Part shown: one piece after another, positions 21,937 to 32,235 of the stretch
How positions within the stretch are numbered: position 1 is the first letter of the stretch
Layout of the letters: each line of letters opens with the position of its first letter
From: Kineococcus vitellinus
Lineage (GTDB): Bacteria; Actinomycetota; Actinomycetes; Actinomycetales; Kineococcaceae
Assembly (NCBI RefSeq): GCF_009906315.1
Contig: NZ_JAAALL010000011.1
Span: 1 to 33,340, forward strand
Direction of reading: 5' to 3'
DNA length: 33,340 nt
Program-made: the position numbers and the translations under genes
The notes under the pieces: generated by a model
Databases searched by the model: none
What the model saw: the letters and a program-made list of their open reading frames with translations, nothing else
Told to the model about the DNA's origin: nothing

Positions 21937-23010
21937 TCAGACCTGGTGGCCGACCTTGAAGCCCTGCTCGACCTCGTCGCGGCGGGTGTAGGAGAACCCG
22001 TCCGCGCCGATGGTCACGTCCGACTCACGGGCGTGGGCGCGCTCGACGACCTCGCGGGGGTTGCCGTCCAGGTCCAGCACGGTGGAGGCGTTGGCGTACC
22101 AGGAGGGCACGACGGGGTTGCCCCACCAGTCGCGGCGCTGGTTGTCGTGCACGTCCCAGGTGACGACGGGGTTGTCGGGGTCGCCGGTGTAGTAGTCGTG
22201 GGTGTAGATCTCGATGCGGTGCCCGTCGGGGTCCAGCAGGTACAGGTAGAAGGCGTTGGAGACCCCGTGCCGTCCCGGGCCGCGCTCGATCTGGTCGCTG
22301 CGGCGCACCGCACCGAGGTGGTCGCACAGGTGCAGGATCTGACTGCGCTCGTGGGTCGCGAAGGCGATGTGGTGCATCCGCGGGCCATCACCGCCGGTCA
22401 GCGCCACGTCGTGGACGGTGGGCTTGCGGTACATCCAGGCCGCGTAGACGGTGCCCTCCTCGTCCTCGATGTCCTCGGAGACCTTGAAGCCGAGCCCCTC
22501 GTAGTAGCGGCGCGCGGCGGGCACGTCGGGGGTGACGACGTTGAAGTGGTCCAGGCGCGAGATGGCGCCGGCGCCGTGGACGTCGTAGCGCTGGGTGAAG
22601 CGCTCCACGTGCTCGGCGTCGTGGAAGAACTCCACGGGGAAGCCGAGAGGGTCCACGATCTGCACGGCTTCGCCGATGCCCTTGGTGGTGCCCGCAGGCA
22701 CCCGGCGGACCTCGACACCCAGGGCGCGGTAGTACTCCTCGGCGAGGTCGAGGTCGCCCGGGGTGCGCACCCGGTAGGCCAGCTTGGCGCAGGCGGCGGC
22801 GGGGCCCTTGCGGATGACCAGGGAGTGGTGCAGGTACTCCTCGAAGGCGCGCAGGTAGAGCGCGTCGTCGGTCTCGGCGGTCACGACCAGGCCGAGCAGT
22901 TCGGTGTAGAACCACTTCGAACGCTCGAGGTCGGTGACGACGAGCTCGGCGTAGGCGCAGCGGATGACGTCGGGTGGGGTGGGCAGGTTGTCGGTTCCGA
23001 CGGTGCTCAC
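21937..23010 (-). CDS. hpaD: Homoprotocatechuate (3,4-dihydroxyphenylacetate) 2,3-dioxygenase
   Basis: This 357-residue type I extradiol dioxygenase opens the ring of 3,4-dihydroxyphenylacetate to 5-carboxymethyl-2-hydroxymuconate semialdehyde. Counting from the GTG at 23010, the metal ligands fall exactly at His155, His214 and Glu267, the numbering known for the Brevibacterium fuscum Fe enzyme and the Arthrobacter Mn enzyme. The second-shell residues Asn157, Trp192, His200, Arg243, Tyr257 and Arg293 also match. That agreement supports both function and start. GAGGAG lies upstream. Whether the metal is Fe or Mn cannot be told from sequence. The stop lies near the triple repeat, and hpaE ends 35 bases upstream of the start, so hpaE and hpaD are co-transcribed. 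Confidence 0.97.
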   Translation of the reverse strand: MSTVGTDNLPTPPDVIRCAYAELVVTDLERSKWFYTELLGLVVTAETDDALYLRAFEEYLHHSLVIRKGPAAACAKLAYRVRTPGDLDLAEEYYRALGVEVRRVPAGTTKGIGEAVQIVDPLGFPVEFFHDAEHVERFTQRYDVHGAGAISRLDHFNVVTPDVPAARRYYEGLGFKVSEDIEDEEGTVYAAWMYRKPTVHDVALTGGDGPRMHHIAFATHERSQILHLCDHLGAVRRSDQIERGPGRHGVSNAFYLYLLDPDGHRIEIYTHDYYTGDPDNPVVTWDVHDNQRRDWWGNPVVPSWYANASTVLDLDGNPREVVERAHARESDVTIGADGFSYTRRDEVEQGFKVGHQV

Positions 23011-23045: not shown

Positions 23046-24578
23046 TCAGTAGTCGATCTCGCTGGCGGCGCGGGCGCCGAAGCGGGCGGTGTGCACATCG
23101 CCGAGGGTGATGTGCACGGCCTGCTGCTCGGTGTAGAAGTCGATGGAGCGGTAGCCGCCCTCGTGCCCCAAGCCGGAGGCCTTGACCCCGCCGAAGGGGC
23201 TGCGCAGGTCGCGCACGTTGTGGGAGTTCAGCCACACCATGCCGGCCTCGATGGAGTGCGCGACGCGGTGCCCGCGCTGCAGGTCGGAGGTCCACACGTA
23301 GCCGGCCAGGCCGTACTTGACGTCGTTGGCCAAAGCGACCGCGTCCGCCTCGTCCTCGAAGGGGGTGATCGCCACGACGGGGCCGAAGATCTCCTCCTGG
23401 AAGATGCGAGCGGTGGAGGGCACATCGGCGAAGACGGTGGGCGCCAGGTAGTTGCCGACCGGCAGGTGCGCCGGGCGGGCGCCGCCGGCGACCAGGCGGG
23501 CTTCGCTCTTGCCGACCTCGACGTAGCCCATGACGCGCTCGTAGTGCTCGGGGTGCACCAGCGCGCCGACCTCGGTCTTCGGGTCGTGCGGGTCACCGAC
23601 GACGATGTTCGTGGCGCGGGCGGCGAAGCGGTCGACGAAGTCGTCGTAGATGCTGCGCTCTACGAGGATCCGGGATCCGGCGGTGCAGCGCTCACCGTTG
23701 AGGGAGAAGACGCCGAAGAGGGTGGAGTCCAGTGCGGCCTCGATGTCAGCGTCGGCGAAGACGACGGCCGGGGACTTGCCGCCCAGCTCCATCGACATGC
23801 CCTTCAGGTGGGTCGCGGAGTTGCGGAAGATCAGCTGGCCGGTGGTGGTCTCGCCGGTGAAGGAGATCAGCCGGGTGCCGGGGTGCTTGACGAGGGCGTC
23901 GCCGGCTTCCTCGCCGATGCCGTTGACGAGGTTGAAGACGCCTCGCGGCAGACCCGCCTCGGTGAAGATCTGCGCCCACAGGCTTGCCGAGAGGGGGGTG
24001 AACTCGGCGGGCTTGAGGACCACGCTGCAGCCGGAGGCGATGGAGGGGGCCAGCTTCCAGGACTCCAGCATGAAGGGGGTGTTCCAGGGGGTGATCAGTC
24101 CGGCGACGCCGACCGGCTTGCGGTTGACGTAGTTGATCTGCTTTCCCGGGACCTTGTAGGCGTCGTCGGTCTGGGCGACGATCAGGTCGGCGAAGAAGCG
24201 GAAGTTCTCCGCCGCGCGCTGGGCTTGGCCGAGGGCCTGGGTGATGGGCAGGCCGGTGTCGAAGCTCTCCAGCTCGGCCAGGCGCTGATCGGCCTGCTCC
24301 ACGAGATCGGCGATCTTGTTGAGGACCCGGGCCCGGGCGCGGGCAGGCTTCTCGGCCCAGGCGCCGGAGTCGAAGGCGCGTTGAGCGGCCTGGACGGCGG
24401 CGTCGACGTCGGCGGCCTGGCCGGCGGCGGCGGTGGCGTAGTCCTCGTTGGAGACCGGGTCGAGGACGTCGAAGGTGGAGCCGTCGAGGGAGTCGCGCAG
24501 CTCGCCGTCGATGAAGTGTTGCAGGTGGGTGGGCAGGTCCTCCGGGACGTGCCGGGTGGAGCTCTCCAGTGCGGTCAC
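23046..24578 (-). CDS. hpaE: 5-carboxymethyl-2-hydroxymuconate semialdehyde dehydrogenase
   Basis: This 510-residue ALDH oxidises the HpaD ring-cleavage product to 5-carboxymethyl-2-hydroxymuconate. It has TPWNTPFMLESWKLAPSIAS, the base Glu264 in MELGGKSP, the nucleophile Cys298 in NGERCTAGSR, and the HpaE-type endings SHNVRDLRSPFGGVKASG and GYRSIDFYTEQQAVHITLGD. The GTG at 24578 is chosen because AGGAGA lies seven bases upstream and the protein then has the family's length. The frame upstream (to 24965) has an Arg/Pro-rich, shadow-like composition. hpaD follows after 35 bases; the GntR gene precedes it by 140 bases. Confidence 0.93.
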   Translation of the reverse strand: MTALESSTRHVPEDLPTHLQHFIDGELRDSLDGSTFDVLDPVSNEDYATAAAGQAADVDAAVQAAQRAFDSGAWAEKPARARARVLNKIADLVEQADQRLAELESFDTGLPITQALGQAQRAAENFRFFADLIVAQTDDAYKVPGKQINYVNRKPVGVAGLITPWNTPFMLESWKLAPSIASGCSVVLKPAEFTPLSASLWAQIFTEAGLPRGVFNLVNGIGEEAGDALVKHPGTRLISFTGETTTGQLIFRNSATHLKGMSMELGGKSPAVVFADADIEAALDSTLFGVFSLNGERCTAGSRILVERSIYDDFVDRFAARATNIVVGDPHDPKTEVGALVHPEHYERVMGYVEVGKSEARLVAGGARPAHLPVGNYLAPTVFADVPSTARIFQEEIFGPVVAITPFEDEADAVALANDVKYGLAGYVWTSDLQRGHRVAHSIEAGMVWLNSHNVRDLRSPFGGVKASGLGHEGGYRSIDFYTEQQAVHITLGDVHTARFGARAASEIDY

Positions 24579-24695: not shown

Positions 24696-24731
24696 CAGGC
24701 GGTGGTCCAGGCGGTGGTTCAGGCGGTGGGG
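24696..24731. repeat. 12-base tandem repeat over the end of the GntR gene
   Basis: CAGGCGGTGGTC, CAGGCGGTGGTT and CAGGCGGTGGGG follow directly. The GntR stop codon (24719-24721) spans the junction of the second and third copies. Further degenerate GGCGGTGG units precede the array. Repeat slippage here would alter the protein end. Confidence 0.8.
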
Positions 24732-25417
24732 GCCTGGGCGGCCTCGTGGGCCAGCACGGCGCGCAGGGTCGCCGAGCGGTGCTCGCGTGCTGCGTGCTCC
24801 ACGACGAGCGCGTCGGCGCCAGAGGCGATCAGGTCCAGCAGGGCGTCGTGCTCGGCGACCGACTGGTGGGTGCGATCGGGCACCATGGAGAAGACGCTGG
24901 TGCGCAGGGTGCTCAGCCGACGCCAGCCGCGGTCGACGAGGTCGAGCAGGTGCGGGTTGGGGCAAGGGGCTGCCAGCGTGCGGTGCAGCCGCTGGTTGAG
25001 CTGGCTGAAGCGCTGGGTGTCGAAGTCTCCCCGATCCAGCTCGGCCAGTTCGGCGCGCATGAGCTCGTTGAGCCGGCGCGCCTCCTGCAGGTCCGCGGCC
25101 GTCAGCAGCGCCACGGCCTGCCCGACCGCAGCCCCCTCGACCACGGCCAGGGTCTCCATGGTCCAGCGGTACTCGACGGGGTCCAGGCCGCGGACGGTGG
25201 CACCGACGTTGCGCTCGAACTCGACCAGGTGCTCAGCCTCCAGACGCCGGATCGCTTCGCGCACCGGAACGGTGGAGGAGCCCAGCTCCTTGGCCAGCGA
25301 GCCGAGGACGAGGCGGTAGCCGGGGGTGTACCGGCCGGAGACGATGCGCTCGCGGATCAGCTGGTAGGCGACCTCGACCTTGGAGGTGGCGACTCCGGCC
25401 ACGGGTCCGGGGGTCAT
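24719..25417 (-). CDS. GntR/FadR-family (FCD) regulator of the hpa cluster
   Basis: This 232-residue protein has an N-terminal winged helix at about residues 10-75 (YQLIRERIVSGRYTPGYRL; SSTVPVREAIRRLEAEHLV) and an FCD all-helical effector domain (ETLAVVEGAAVGQAVALL; LNQRLHRTLAAPCPNPHLLDLV; EHDALLDLIASGADALVVEHAAREH). FCD domains bind carboxylates, often through a metal. I prefer the ATG at 25417 because GGAGG precedes it; a GTG at 25432 would add five residues. It is divergent from the hpaG-type gene across a promoter region with three CGTATA-like sites, so it probably represses both sides and responds to an arylacetate or cleavage product (inference). Confidence 0.9.
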   Translation of the reverse strand: MTPGPVAGVATSKVEVAYQLIRERIVSGRYTPGYRLVLGSLAKELGSSTVPVREAIRRLEAEHLVEFERNVGATVRGLDPVEYRWTMETLAVVEGAAVGQAVALLTAADLQEARRLNELMRAELAELDRGDFDTQRFSQLNQRLHRTLAAPCPNPHLLDLVDRGWRRLSTLRTSVFSMVPDRTHQSVAEHDALLDLIASGADALVVEHAAREHRSATLRAVLAHEAAQAPTA

Positions 25418-25480
25418 CGGCGTTGCCTCCACGTCGTCGTCGGAGCCTCTAGCTGATCCGCATCGTATATCTTAAGGTAC

Positions 25481-25524: not shown

Positions 25525-25553
25525 ATGACAAATCGTATACGGTCTCAGATACA
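25525..25553 (+). promoter_or_regulatory. Promoter of the hpaG-H-I operon
   Basis: ATGACA (25525-25530) and GATACA (25548-25553) are exactly 17 bases apart. The palindrome CGTATACG sits between them. The leader would be only about 11 bases, just enough for AGGAGAG (25559-25565) before the start, so the true start of transcription may be slightly upstream. Confidence 0.5.
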
Positions 25554-25570: not shown

Positions 25571-27127
25571 ATGATGACCCAGCCCGACCGCGGCGACCAG
25601 CCCAGCCGTGACGACGAAGCCGGCCCCGACCCGCGCTTCGCGGTCCTGCCCGCAGGCCGCCCCGGCAAGGTGGTCGCCGTCCACCTCAGCTACCTCTCCC
25701 GCGCGCAGCAACGCGGGCGGCGACCCGCCGCCCCCTCCTACTTCCTCAAGCCCTCCAGCTCGCTGGCCGCCGGCGGCGGCACGGTCGAGCGACCGGCGGG
25801 CACCGAATTGCTCGCCTTCGAGGGGGAGATCGCCCTCGTCATCGCCAAGCCCGCCCGCCGGGTGCCTGCCGATCGGGCTTGGGGGTACGTCGCCCACATC
25901 ACCGCGGCCAACGACCTGGGCCTGTACGACCTGCGCGCCAACGACAAGGGCTCCAACGTCCGTTCCAAGGGCGGCGACGGCTTCACCCCGCTCGGCCCTG
26001 CGCTCATCGACGCCGCGGATCTCGACGAGCGCGCGCTGCGCGTGCGCACCTGGGTCAACGGCCAGCTGGCCCAGGAGGGCACCACCGACGGCCTGCTGTT
26101 CCCGCTCTCGCAGATCGTCGCCGACCTCTCCCAGCACTTCACCCTCGAGACCGGGGACCTCATCCTCACCGGCACCCCCGCCGGCTCCAGCGTCGTAGCC
26201 CCCGGCGACGTCGTCGAGGTCGAAGTCGACGTGGTCGCCGGCGCGGCCACCGGGGCGAGCACCGGGCGGCTGGTGACGACCGTGCTCCAAGGCGAGCACC
26301 CTTTCGACCCGGCCCTGGGCTCGGGACCGGCCGTGGACGACACCCAGCGCGAGGAGGCGTGGGGCTCGCGGGCAGCTGCCGGCCTCCCTCAGCGATCCGG
26401 CGCCGACGACGCCCATGGTGTCCTGCCTGACGACCTGCCTGACAACCTGCGCGACAAGCTCGAACGCACCCCCGTCGCCGCCCTCTCCGGCCAGCTGCGC
26501 AAGCGCGGGCTGAACAACGTCACCATCGACGGCGTCACCTCCAACCACTCCGACCGCAAGCTCGTGGGCCTGGCCCGCACCCTGCGCTTCGTCCCCAACC
26601 GCGAGGACCTCTTCGCCTCCCACGGCGGCGGGTACAACGCCCAGAAGCGAATCTTCGACGCGGTCGCCCCCGGTGAGGTCATCGTCATCGAGGCCCGCGG
26701 TGAGACCGGCTCGGGAACCCTCGGCGACATCCTGGCCATCCGCGCCCACGCCCGCGGCGCCGCTGGGATCGTCACCGACGGCGGCGTGCGTGACCACGAC
26801 GCCGTCACCGCGGTCGGCCTGCCCGTCTACTCCCGCGGAGCCCACCCGGCCGTGCTGGGGCGCAAGCACGTTCCGTGGGAGGTCGATGTCACGATCGCCT
26901 GCGGAGGCACCACCGTCCAGCCCGGCGACGTCATCGTCGGGGACGCCGACGGGGTACTGGTCCTCCCCCGCGCCCTTGCCGAGGAGGTCGTGGACGCCGC
27001 CTTGGCCCAAGAGCGTGAGGACGCCTGGATCGCCGAGCAGGTCGCCGCGGGTCACCCGGTGGACGGCCTCTTCCCGATGAACGCCGAGTGGCGCGCCAGG
27101 TACACCGCGCACAACGAGCAGGGCTGA
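25571..27127 (+). CDS. hpaG: FAH domain-RraA domain fusion in the hpaG position
   Basis: This 518-residue protein has two unrelated folds. Residues about 28-245 are a fumarylacetoacetate-hydrolase (FAH) domain with the metal residues in FEGEIALVI and the signature HITAANDLGLYDLRANDKG, plus TGDLILTGTPAGSS. Residues about 295-505 are an RraA/HMG-aldolase-like domain (SGQLRKRGLNNVTIDGV; GTLGDILAIRAHARGAAGIV; GGVRDHDAVTAVGLPVY; GDADGVLVLP). Classical HpaG is two FAH repeats catalysing decarboxylation and isomerisation of the HpaE product. Here one repeat is replaced by RraA, a family with keto-acid aldolase and decarboxylase activity. The linker (about 246-294) includes the repeat-like LPDDLPDNLRDKL. 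Start: ATG ATG after AGGAGAG. It begins the operon with hpaH and hpaI. Confidence 0.9.
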   Translation: MMTQPDRGDQPSRDDEAGPDPRFAVLPAGRPGKVVAVHLSYLSRAQQRGRRPAAPSYFLKPSSSLAAGGGTVERPAGTELLAFEGEIALVIAKPARRVPADRAWGYVAHITAANDLGLYDLRANDKGSNVRSKGGDGFTPLGPALIDAADLDERALRVRTWVNGQLAQEGTTDGLLFPLSQIVADLSQHFTLETGDLILTGTPAGSSVVAPGDVVEVEVDVVAGAATGASTGRLVTTVLQGEHPFDPALGSGPAVDDTQREEAWGSRAAAGLPQRSGADDAHGVLPDDLPDNLRDKLERTPVAALSGQLRKRGLNNVTIDGVTSNHSDRKLVGLARTLRFVPNREDLFASHGGGYNAQKRIFDAVAPGEVIVIEARGETGSGTLGDILAIRAHARGAAGIVTDGGVRDHDAVTAVGLPVYSRGAHPAVLGRKHVPWEVDVTIACGGTTVQPGDVIVGDADGVLVLPRALAEEVVDAALAQEREDAWIAEQVAAGHPVDGLFPMNAEWRARYTAHNEQG

Positions 27128-27199: not shown

Positions 27200-27985
27200 A
27201 TGCTGACCCCCGAGACCATCACCGCGATCGCAGACGAGCTGGCCACCGCCGAACGTGAGCGCACGGTGGTGCCCCTGCTCACGGCCCGCTACCCGGACAT
27301 GGCGGTGGAGGACTCCTACGCGGTCCAGAACGAGTGGCGCCGCCGCGGGATCGAGGCCGGCCGGCGTCCGGTGGGACGCAAGATCGGCCTCACCTCCAAG
27401 GTCATGCAGGCGGCCACTGGCATCACCGAACCCGACTACGGTGCGATCTTCGCCGACATGGTCTTCGAGAGCGGCAGCGTGATCGAGCACGCGCAGTTCT
27501 CCAACGTCCGCATCGAGGTGGAACTCGCCTTCGTGCTCGGCGCCGCCCTGTCGGGACCGCACGTCTCGATCTTCGATGTGCTGCGCGCCACCGAGTACGT
27601 CGTCCCCGCCTTGGAGATCCTCTCCTCGCGCATCCAGATGCAGGGCCGGACCATCGTCGACACCATCAGCGACAACGCCGCCATGGGCGGGATGGTGCTG
27701 GGCGGCAGCCCCGTCGCCGTCGACGAGGTCGACCTGCGCTGGGTCTCCGCCCTGCTGTACCGCAACGAGAGCATCGAGGAGTCCGGCGTCGCCGCCGCGG
27801 TCCTGAACCACCCCGCCTCCGGCGTGGCGTGGCTGGCGCAGAAGCTCGCCCAGCACCAGGACCACCTCGCCGCCGGGGAGATCGTGCTTGCCGGCTCCTT
27901 CACCCGCCCGATGTGGGTGCATCCCGGGGACACCGTCCTCGCCGACTACGGACGACTGGGGACGATCTCGTGCCGCTTCAGCTGA
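27200..27985 (+). CDS. hpaH: 2-oxohept-4-ene-1,7-dioate hydratase
   Basis: This 261-residue member of the HpaH/MhpD hydratase family adds water to 2-oxohept-4-ene-1,7-dioate to give 4-hydroxy-2-oxoheptanedioate. Signatures include VGRKIGLTSKVMQAATGITEPDYG, the acidic metal site in RIEVELAFVLG, and VVPALEILSSRI, with the C-terminal LAAGEIVLAGSFTRP and VHPGDTVLADYG. Length is normal for the family. GAGGAGG lies six bases upstream of the ATG. It follows the FAH-RraA gene by 72 bases and its end overlaps the hpaI start by 16 bases. Confidence 0.95.
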   Translation: MLTPETITAIADELATAERERTVVPLLTARYPDMAVEDSYAVQNEWRRRGIEAGRRPVGRKIGLTSKVMQAATGITEPDYGAIFADMVFESGSVIEHAQFSNVRIEVELAFVLGAALSGPHVSIFDVLRATEYVVPALEILSSRIQMQGRTIVDTISDNAAMGGMVLGGSPVAVDEVDLRWVSALLYRNESIEESGVAAAVLNHPASGVAWLAQKLAQHQDHLAAGEIVLAGSFTRPMWVHPGDTVLADYGRLGTISCRFS

Positions 27986-28776
27986 AGCCCACTCTGCGCG
28001 AGCGCCTGAGCGCCAGCGACCGGGCGTTGTTCGGCGGCTGGATCTGCTCCGGCTCCCCCGTCGTCGCCGAGATCATGGCCGGCTCCGGCCTGGACTGGGT
28101 GCTCATCGACATGGAGCACGCACCCAACGGGCTCGAATCCGTCCTCGCCCAGCTCTACGCCGTCTCCGGCTACCCGGTCACCCCGGTCGTGCGGGTCCCC
28201 GCCGCTGACGACGTCGTCCTCAAGCAGGTCCTCGACCTCGGTGCGCAGACCGTCCTCGTACCCATGGTCTCCACACCTGAGCAGGCACGGGCGGTGGTGC
28301 AGGCGACGCAGTACCCACCAGCGGGCCGACGCGGAGTCGGCAGCGCGCTGGCGCGTTCGGCGCGCTGGAACCGTGTCGAAGGATACTTGCAGGACGCCTC
28401 GCAGCACGTGAGCGTCATCGTGCAGGTGGAGACGAGCGAGGGCGTGCAGAACGCTCGGGCGATCGCCGAGACTCCCGGCATCGACGCCGTCTTCGTCGGC
28501 CCCAGCGACCTGGCCGCCTCGATGGGCTTGCTCGGCCAGCAGAGCCACCCCGATGTGGTCGGGTCAGTGCGGGATGCGCTGGCAGCCGCGCTCGCCGCCG
28601 ACAAACCGGTCGGCGTGAACGCCTTCGATCCCACCGTCGCGCGGGGCTACGTCGAGGCGGGCGCTCAGTTCGTGCTCGTGGGTGCGGACGTCGGTCTGGT
28701 CGCGCGCGGATCTGAGGCGCTTGCGACTGACTTCATCACCGCTGATCGCGAGGAGCAAGAACGCGCTTCCTACTGA
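27970..28776 (+). CDS. hpaI: 4-hydroxy-2-oxoheptanedioate aldolase
   Basis: This 268-residue class II aldolase of the HpcH/HpaI family splits 4-hydroxy-2-oxoheptanedioate into pyruvate and succinic semialdehyde. Diagnostic stretches are GLDWVLIDMEHAPNG (catalytic His50), PVVRVP (Arg75), PPAGRRGVGSALARSARWNR, VQVETSEGVQNARAIAE and DAVFVGPSDLAASMG. They follow E. coli HpaI closely as I recall it. The GTG at 27970 gives the family's length; it overlaps the hpaH end by 16 bases, with GGGGA upstream, implying translational coupling. The longer frame upstream is a shadow of hpaH. Confidence 0.95.
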   Translation: MPLQLKPTLRERLSASDRALFGGWICSGSPVVAEIMAGSGLDWVLIDMEHAPNGLESVLAQLYAVSGYPVTPVVRVPAADDVVLKQVLDLGAQTVLVPMVSTPEQARAVVQATQYPPAGRRGVGSALARSARWNRVEGYLQDASQHVSVIVQVETSEGVQNARAIAETPGIDAVFVGPSDLAASMGLLGQQSHPDVVGSVRDALAAALAADKPVGVNAFDPTVARGYVEAGAQFVLVGADVGLVARGSEALATDFITADREEQERASY

Positions 28777-31570: not shown

Positions 31571-32235
31571 TTGAGGGCCGCCCCGCTGCGCGGCCCTGAC
31601 GAGCTCGCCGTCGAGGACGTGGAGCTGGAAGCTCCCGGGCCGGTGAGCTGCGAGTGCCCGCAGAAGCCGTCGGGGTCTGCCACACCGAGCTGCACTACAT
31701 GAGCGGCGACATGACCTGCCCGCTGCCCGTCGTCCTCGGTCACGAGGGCGTAGGCATCCTGGAGCAGGTGGGAGACGAGGACCTCGACATCAGCGCCGAC
31801 GACGTCATCGTCGTGCACGGCGCCGGGCCCCGCGGCTACCCCGGCATGCCGGAGGTGTCCAACGTGCCGCTGCCCGCCAAGCTGCTGCGCGCCGGCGTCA
31901 GCGACATGGTGCGCATCAGCGACGGCCGGATCAGCGGCACGGGTTTCGGCGCGGTGGTCCTGCACGTGGCGCCCGAGGCCGCCGTCGGCGGCCCGCTCGG
32001 CCTGCTGCGCACCGGGGACGTCATCACCCTCGACGTCCCCGCCCGCCGCCTGGACGTGCAGCTGAGCGAGGAGGAGCTCGCCGCGCGCACCCCGTCCTGG
32101 GAGCGCGGCAGCGGCGTCGGCGACGGCGGCTGGCCGTGGCTGTACGCCGAGCACGTGCTGCAGGCCGACGAGGGCGCCGACCTGGACTTCCTGCGCGGCG
32201 CGCGCGGCAGCGCGGTGCCCCGCGACTCCCACTGA
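31571..32235 (+). pseudogene. Alcohol dehydrogenase-IlvD/Edd dehydratase chimera, frameshifted
   Basis: The first part is the N-terminus of a zinc alcohol dehydrogenase: RGPDELAVEDVELEAPGP, then, after one missing G at about 31642, VGVCHTELHYMSGD and PVVLGHEGVGILEQVGD. At about 31770-31790 it changes in frame into the C-terminus of an IlvD/Edd-family dehydratase (sugar-acid type): GPRGYPGMPEVSNVPLPAKL, MVRISDGRISGTGFGAVVLH and RTGDVITLDVPARRLDVQL, with a natural end. From 31654 on, one frame of 193 codons is open. Both enzymes lack their catalytic cores or cofactor domains, so activity is unlikely. The controlling promoter and operators upstream look intact. Confidence 0.7.

Follow-up and report, generated by a model that had tools for sequence, protein, structure and literature searches.

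A fusion of fumarylacetoacetate hydrolase and RraA-like domains very probably replaces HpaG in homoprotocatechuate gene clusters of Kineococcus vitellinus and other actinobacteria

The homoprotocatechuate pathway is well described, and HpaF and HpaG catalyse standard steps in it. The hpa gene cluster of Kineococcus vitellinus raises the question of which protein does the work of HpaG, and by what means. The window analysed here is the whole of a 33,340-nucleotide stretch of DNA (assembly GCF_009906315.1, contig NZ_JAAALL010000011.1, positions 1 to 33,340). At the place of HpaG it carries a gene whose product joins a fumarylacetoacetate hydrolase (FAH) domain to an RraA-like domain. A first-pass annotation of this DNA proposed that the fusion stands in for HpaG, and that it kept one of the two HpaG repeats and exchanged the other for RraA. 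The evidence upholds the former proposal, and the fusion very probably does replace HpaG; the exchange of a repeat finds no such support. The gene and its parts are as follows (numbers with the prefixes L, G and C are our own labels for loci, genomes and contigs).

25571-27127, plus strand: FAH-RraA fusion gene, probable HpaG replacement (open reading frame of 518 amino acids; two Pfam domains; NF009399)
25670-26281, plus strand: FAH half, residues 34-237 (Pfam FAA_hydrolase, residue counts, fold match)
26282-26482, plus strand: linker, residues 238-304 (alignments; conserved positions G250 to G265)
26483-26962, plus strand: RraA-like half, residues 305-464 (Pfam, motif D386-X20-R407-D408, fold match)

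The sequence AGGAGAG lies directly 5' of the ATG. Both halves are encoded in one reading frame, as the first-pass annotation had read it, and Pfam finds each as a single stretch: FAA_hydrolase scores 163.3 bits (cut-off 23.9) and the RraA-like domain 114.4 bits (cut-off 24.5). The NCBIfam model NF009399 (PRK12764) spans both halves (803.2 bits, cut-off 444, residues 30-515). The fusion is thus a full-length match of the same architecture, and its kind is already catalogued; the model carries the generic name 'fumarylacetoacetate hydrolase family protein' with no stated function or pathway. Database labels on the fusion proteins are limited to this name or 'dimethylmenaquinone methyltransferase'. 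Neither HpaG model accepts the fusion. TIGR02305, for the N-terminal FAH repeat of HpaG (HpaG-N), gives 91.7 bits (cut-off 228.65), against 465.4 for E. coli HpaG; TIGR02303, for the C-terminal repeat (HpaG-C), gives 152.5 bits (cut-off 276.4), against 472.1. The RraA half passes NF006093, the PRK08245 RraA-like subfamily (232.3 bits, cut-off 208, residues 290-516), a model named 'hypothetical protein'. A chance, frame or assembly artefact is ruled out because the architecture and the metal-site residues are kept across 90 aligned homologous fusions; this alignment includes the window protein and none of the fusions whose clusters are of the dihydrodipicolinate synthase (DHDPS) type described below.

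The genome of K. vitellinus (4.86 Mb, 99.94% complete, 698 contigs) yields five FAH matches in a profile search. A second, complete HpaG elsewhere in this genome was foreseen by the first-pass annotation as the finding that would speak against replacement; no two-FAH HpaG is present among the five matches, and the best HpaG-N score in the genome is 98.7 bits, below the cut-off of 228.65. The FAH proteins at C30 and C204, candidates for a hidden HpaG, match best to the sugar-acid hydrolase model NF053535 and to TIGR02303, both under cut-off. Another FAH match lies at C532.

Surveys of actinobacterial genomes extend this picture. Among 296 genomes sampled from the class, those with HpaD over its cut-off and those with the fusion are the same 20, which span eight family codes. 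In all 20 the RraA half scores at least 335 bits. There are 21 fusion loci in these genomes; both halves were checked directly in each (the FAH half is cut by a contig edge in G617), and the RraA and HpaD matches always lie on one contig, less than 5 kb apart. A survey of the kind proposed in the first-pass annotation finds the same fusion in 20 of 296 class genomes, with HpaD beside each. An exact test on this table gives about 2e-31, a value that is a description rather than a clean probability because the genomes are related. HpaG-N is over cut-off in none of the 296 class genomes, a scan which itself gave no control match, and in none of 27 fusion genomes. As a control, the HpaG-N model passes in both plasmid records that carry a classical HpaG (291 and 243 bits); it stays under cut-off in a Deinococcus single-FAH record (170 bits) and in two fusion plasmids. 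Of 396 genomes drawn from the phylum, eight have the fusion over cut-off and 13 have HpaD, the eight being nested within the 13. G338, one of the eight, has the fusion and HpaD on separate short contigs, with an unfused FAH of the same subtype on the HpaD contig. Strict pairing is broken by G528, which has an HpaD under cut-off (294.6 bits), no fusion and two FAH-family matches nearby, and by G268, which has a second HpaD over cut-off (330.8 bits) without an adjacent fusion. Since the fusion and HpaD share the same 20 of 296 genomes and HpaG-N is in none, the fusion is very probably what actinobacteria usually have in place of HpaG.

By its tree, the FAH half is no retained HpaG repeat. The tree covers 49 FAH domains. 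Those of the 18 fusions cluster together (support 96/92) and join 15 unfused actinobacterial (SR-type) FAH proteins (100/99); a separate group (99/95) holds HpaG-C, HpaG-N and the single FAHs from other hpa clusters. In the approximately unbiased (AU) test, a clade of the fusion halves with the HpaG-C-type rows, single-FAH rows included, is rejected (p = 0.0017), and so is a clade with all HpaG-type rows (p = 0.015); both values lean towards rejection because the groups were picked after the alignment had been viewed. Since the FAH half groups with the unfused FAH family and grouping with HpaG-C is rejected, the fusion is, on this evidence, a different protein in the place of HpaG, not an HpaG with one repeat exchanged. 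The same grounds give no support to the first-pass view of a retained HpaG repeat with RraA in place of its partner. The RraA tree, made without the long row L143, resolves too little to date the fusion or to show whether a standalone RraA (L031, below) split from a fusion.

The best 80 of 547 relatives in a scan of named genomes are all actinobacterial; most are from Microbacterium, and Cellulomonas, Nocardia, Streptomyces, Micromonospora, Rhodococcoides, Cryobacterium, Microbispora and others are also represented. Eleven plasmid records have a match, which covers most of the fusion query in four; these four include Paenarthrobacter aurescens TC1 plasmid pTC2 and a plasmid from Rhodococcus with the same cluster. 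Among 95 fusion loci, HpaE is found in 93, HpaD in 92 and a GntR/FCD regulator homologue in 89. HpaH and HpaI are both present in 81 loci; six others have a DHDPS-family protein instead (L151, L152, L154, L157, L158 and L159), two have HpaH alone, and the six in which HpaH, HpaI and DHDPS are all unseen stop at a contig end. The DHDPS-family protein may be a combined hydratase-aldolase that does the HpaH and HpaI steps, since it never occurs together with HpaH and HpaI in the 95 loci. The full-length locus L066 (6417-8908, Streptomyces sp. SID10853) combines the fusion with HpaH, HpaI and HpaB; HpaD and HpaE are not found within 9 kb, DUF3500 genes standing in their place, and it perhaps serves another ring-cleavage route.

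How the two halves divide the work is a separate question. Read from sequence, the best explanation of the whole is a tentative one, just short of an even call: the fusion would replace HpaG with its RraA half as the decarboxylase and its FAH half as the isomerase. It would carry the pathway from 5-carboxymethyl-2-hydroxymuconate (CHM), the HpaE product, to 2-oxohept-3-ene-1,7-dioate. The RraA half would be a decarboxylase dependent on metal: it would bind 5-oxopent-3-ene-1,2,5-tricarboxylate (OPET) by its 2-oxo-acid head and remove the distant carboxylate. The FAH half would be a metal-dependent enol-keto isomerase acting before or after the decarboxylation, and possibly also performs the HpaF isomerisation. 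HpaH and HpaI would then take up the product; in some relatives the one DHDPS-family protein would do so. These activities, the half to which each belongs and the order in which they act are inferred. As a 2-oxo acid, OPET bears its distant carboxylate on a CH(COOH)CH2COOH end; 4-carboxy-4-hydroxy-2-oxoadipate (CHA), a substrate of the aldolase named below, has a similar head and end. The assignment of the halves, for which we put the chances as even, is made by analogy because relatives of the RraA half decarboxylate and FAH proteins mainly tautomerise. The 4-hydroxy-4-methyl-2-oxoglutarate (HMG)/CHA aldolase, which has the RraA fold, is reported also to decarboxylate oxaloacetate (PMC5065237). 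FlDet, of the RraA family, is described as a dehydratase/decarboxylase which takes water and CO2 from a 2-oxo hexarate (PMC8563752). FAH-domain proteins are reported to be strong oxaloacetate tautomerases, with decarboxylase activity about 2x10^4-fold lower on average (PMC10825186). A decarboxylase step supplied by the RraA half is plausible, and gene context points both ways.

The metal sites of both halves are conserved. In the FAH half, the metal triad E84/E86/D115 and K133 are invariant in the 90 fusions, as is the RraA motif D386-X20-R407-D408. D-X20-R-D is the metal and catalytic motif of HMG/CHA aldolases. Most RraA homologues are stated to carry either of two motifs, which serve to bind metal and in catalysis (PMC5065237). 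The lid of the FAH half is altered. The acid-base dyad of FAHD1 is given as H30/E33 (PMC7116474); in the fusions the His position is Arg (R44) in 90 of 90, and the Glu position, 47, is Gln in 89 and Glu once. His and Glu are both kept in E. coli HpaG-C, in the single FAH proteins of L032-L034 and in the lid-covering piece of the L035 FAH. In the structural model, the FAH half (residues 14-243) matches T. thermophilus HpcE (1wzo, Z 22.9) and the C-half of HpcE/HpaG (1i7o, Z 21.5); the RraA half (residues 284-506) matches RraAS2 (5x15, Z 26.6) and an HMG/CHA aldolase (3noj, Z 22.5).

Five phylum genomes with HpaD but without the fusion carry other gene sets, and these bear on which half decarboxylates. 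In L031 (G109) an RraA that stands alone, with 54% identity to its counterpart in the fusion, lies beside HpaD, aldehyde dehydrogenase and DHDPS genes, and the 16 kb analysed there contain no FAH match. This fits RraA as the decarboxylase. It tells against the opposite assignment, in which the FAH half would decarboxylate OPET as HpaG does and the RraA half would isomerise 2-hydroxyhepta-2,4-diene-1,7-dioate (HHDD) or CHM. Loss of the lid His across the fusion family and the failure of the FAH half to group with HpaG-C tell against it as well, and no RraA-fold isomerase was met in the literature consulted, though no search was aimed at one. We regard the opposite assignment as rather unlikely. 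Several observations weigh against our preferred division, with RraA as decarboxylase and FAH as isomerase, and some of them favour the reverse. The FAH half retains the metal triad and Lys; its best sequence match in the PDB is HpaG, whose C-half gives the higher score, and HpcE/HpaG is among its fold matches. The other four genomes (L032-L035, from G032, G058, G111 and G081) have a single FAH with HpaE and HpaD and no RraA match, so one FAH can apparently suffice in an hpa cluster; L035 has a broken FAH frame, and the presence of a DHDPS gene is confirmed for L032-L034. L160 (4651-12826, G041) has an unfused FAH of the fusion subtype near a GntR gene, a glutamine synthetase and a cytochrome P450, together with a dioxygenase-like match, an HpaE-like aldehyde dehydrogenase and no RraA match; a fusion-type FAH may thus itself decarboxylate. 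The single-FAH clusters and L160 do not settle the assignment, and can be read the other way. L031 is itself qualified: its HpaD is divergent (39%), RraA of its type occurs in one of 39 genomes of its family, in one cluster, and the G109 genome has an unfused FAH elsewhere (G109:C1). The lid is also less telling than it appears. Loss of the His predates the fusion, and an origin of the H-to-R change with the fusion is ruled out, because all 22 unfused FAH relatives examined have Arg at 44, with Glu at 47; Glu at 47 is kept in the G338 fusion and in three of the six DHDPS-type fusions (L151, L152 and L157), the other three having Gln. Finally, the structural model is moderate (pLDDT 77.5, pTM 0.47) and its relative placing of the domains unreliable, with low confidence in the linker at 250-255 and 276-286.

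Two other readings give the RraA half a different role. It could be a class II pyruvate aldolase acting on 4-hydroxy-2-oxoheptanedioate or a related 2-oxo acid, with the FAH half alone doing the work of HpaG. The D-X20-R-D motif is kept, the fold match to 3noj is consistent with such an enzyme, and class II pyruvate aldolase is given as the likely identity of most RraA homologues (PMC5065237). We nevertheless find this quite improbable: HpaH with HpaI, or DHDPS, able to do the step, are present in 87 of the 95 fusion loci (81 plus six), and the RraA half is under the cut-offs of the HMG/CHA aldolase models TIGR02798 (87.7 against 304.5 bits) and NF006731 (98.6 against 179 bits), shortfalls which count against the decarboxylase role too. 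Alternatively, the RraA half could be non-catalytic, a structural or RNase-E-inhibitor type of domain carried on an FAH enzyme. The closest solved structure is indeed RraAS2 of S. coelicolor, which is reported to inhibit RNase ES (PMC10126417). The metal motif in 90 of 90 fusions, a score of 53.0 bits against the cut-off of 136 for the RNase E regulator model NF006875, and the strict link with the hpa cluster make this role very improbable.

The preferred reading, with the RraA half as decarboxylase and the FAH half as isomerase, can be extended to HpaF. A single fused enzyme of two unrelated folds could cover the steps of HpaF as well as those of HpaG, with keto and enol forms made and remade by the FAH half, CO2 removed in between by the RraA half, and the intermediate passed between the halves; we think this unlikely. 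HpaF is not found in the 95 fusion loci, the four single-FAH clusters or L031, while three of three classical control loci match, and eight additional fusion loci have none (0 of 103 in total). In whole genomes, the HpaF family PF02962 is over cut-off in two of 27 fusion genomes. G412 has HpaF on the fusion contig, about 68 kb away, with an FAH gene and a major facilitator superfamily (MFS) gene in the same stretch; the HpaF stretch of G402 has no match to hpa queries. Neither HpaF nor a tautomerase of the 4-oxalocrotonate type is found in 12 of the 27. The other 15, both HpaF genomes included, have such a tautomerase, which could help; this weighs against the preferred reading. The idea that the fusion caused the loss of HpaF is likewise weakened. 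The missing HpaF is no proof of fusion function, because the four single-FAH clusters, and L031, are also without it.

RraA genes occur in other settings too. By the queries used, the standalone RraA genes of L044, L145-L150, L153, L155 and L156 lie outside hpa clusters. L130 (5496-15456, on a Streptomyces coelicoflavus plasmid) encodes an unfused PRK08245-subfamily RraA next to a protein resembling extradiol dioxygenases, with an HpaB-like oxygenase, an aldehyde dehydrogenase, RidA and an FAH gene as further neighbours; by its gene content it is a further ring-cleavage cluster, with RraA and FAH separate. Rhodococcus ruber Chol-4 is described with a different gene set, which includes a 4-oxalocrotonate tautomerase (PMC6498646).

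The fusion gene of the window lies among the following genes; CHMS is the semialdehyde of CHM.

21937-22971, minus strand: hpaD, homoprotocatechuate 2,3-dioxygenase (TIGR02295, 415.7 bits, cut-off 321.4; start from model match)
23046-24521, minus strand: hpaE, CHMS dehydrogenase (TIGR02299, 665.1 bits, cut-off 638.35; start from model match)
24719-25432, minus strand: GntR/FCD-family regulator, divergent from the fusion gene (Pfam GntR and FCD)
27200-27985, plus strand: hpaH, 2-oxo-hept-4-ene-1,7-dioate hydratase (TIGR02312, 356.2 bits, cut-off 351.5)
27970-28776, plus strand: hpaI-like aldolase (TIGR02311, 296.2 bits, cut-off 368.8; Pfam HpcH_HpaI, 173 bits)

HpaD, HpaE and HpaH all pass equivalog cut-offs. 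HpaI is named by homology and place, because its TIGR02311 score is under cut-off; we read its start as a probable GTG at 27970, overlapping the hpaH stop. Between the divergent GntR gene and the fusion gene, positions 25532-25543 read ATCGTATACGGT, which contains the palindrome CGTATACG; this putative element resembles a GntR/FCD operator. Left of hpaD are genes for an MFS transporter, two aldehyde dehydrogenases, a thiamine pyrophosphate enzyme and a phenol-hydroxylase-like FAD monooxygenase, which would fit a tyrosine/4-hydroxyphenylacetate supercluster. At 31654-32235, a short open reading frame passes from a match to the N-terminal part of alcohol dehydrogenase into one to the C-terminal part of dihydroxy-acid dehydratase; it is possibly an assembly chimera or gene remnants.

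The fusion shares its place in the pathway and in the gene cluster with HpaG/HpcE, the bifunctional isomerase/decarboxylase of E. coli (TIGR02303 with TIGR02305, NF011750). Both have two domains in one polypeptide, with an FAH fold that bears the metal triad and Lys. Unlike HpaG/HpcE, the fusion contains a single FAH, which the tree places in another FAH group, and its second domain is RraA, a different fold; the lid His is Arg, and the cluster has no hpaF. With hydrolase/decarboxylases of the FAHD1/Cg1458 type the fusion shares the metal triad and Lys, without the lid His/Glu dyad. With HMG/CHA aldolase/oxaloacetate decarboxylases of the LigK/ProA type (3noj) it shares the RraA fold, the D-X20-R-D motif and metal-bound 2-oxo acid chemistry; unlike them, its RraA half is under the TIGR02798 and NF006731 cut-offs and fused to FAH, and its substrate is predicted. 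FlDet, the KDGR dehydratase/decarboxylase, is likewise an RraA-family protein that decarboxylates a 2-oxo dicarboxylate; by its description (PMC8563752), the sole basis of the comparison, it differs in serving a sugar-acid pathway, standing alone and also dehydrating.

Descriptions of actinobacterial hpa clusters agree with parts of this account. Corynebacterium aurimucosum ATCC 700975 is reported to have the order hpaGLEDHI, with a regulatory hpaL between hpaG and hpaE and with hpaF elsewhere on the chromosome (PMC2830990). This resembles the order fusion-GntR-HpaE-HpaD-HpaH-HpaI of many loci, a likeness of gene order alone. The gene is named HpaG there, and the part of that report consulted mentions no RraA domain; this comparison, too, is by description only. 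Arthrobacter sp. Rue61a, whose closest sequenced relative is A. aurescens TC1, is stated to grow on homoprotocatechuate, 4-hydroxyphenylacetate and tyrosine (PMC3534580); by analogy, this growth supports a working pathway in such bacteria. No description of the FAH-RraA architecture, or assay of it, was found in the portions of open-licence papers searched.

Homoprotocatechuate is derived from tyrosine, and many soil actinobacteria very probably degrade it with the fusion in place of HpaG. Its assignment would correct many annotations, would test a further catalytic role of the RraA fold and would give a clear example of a non-orthologous fusion that has taken over a step in a pathway. The natural variants (fusion with HpaH and HpaI, fusion with DHDPS, single FAH with DHDPS, and RraA with DHDPS) make the division of labour directly testable. 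If one enzyme does the work of both HpaF and HpaG, actinobacteria would have invented these pathway steps independently, and the RraA fold would act in the decarboxylation of a meta-cleavage intermediate.

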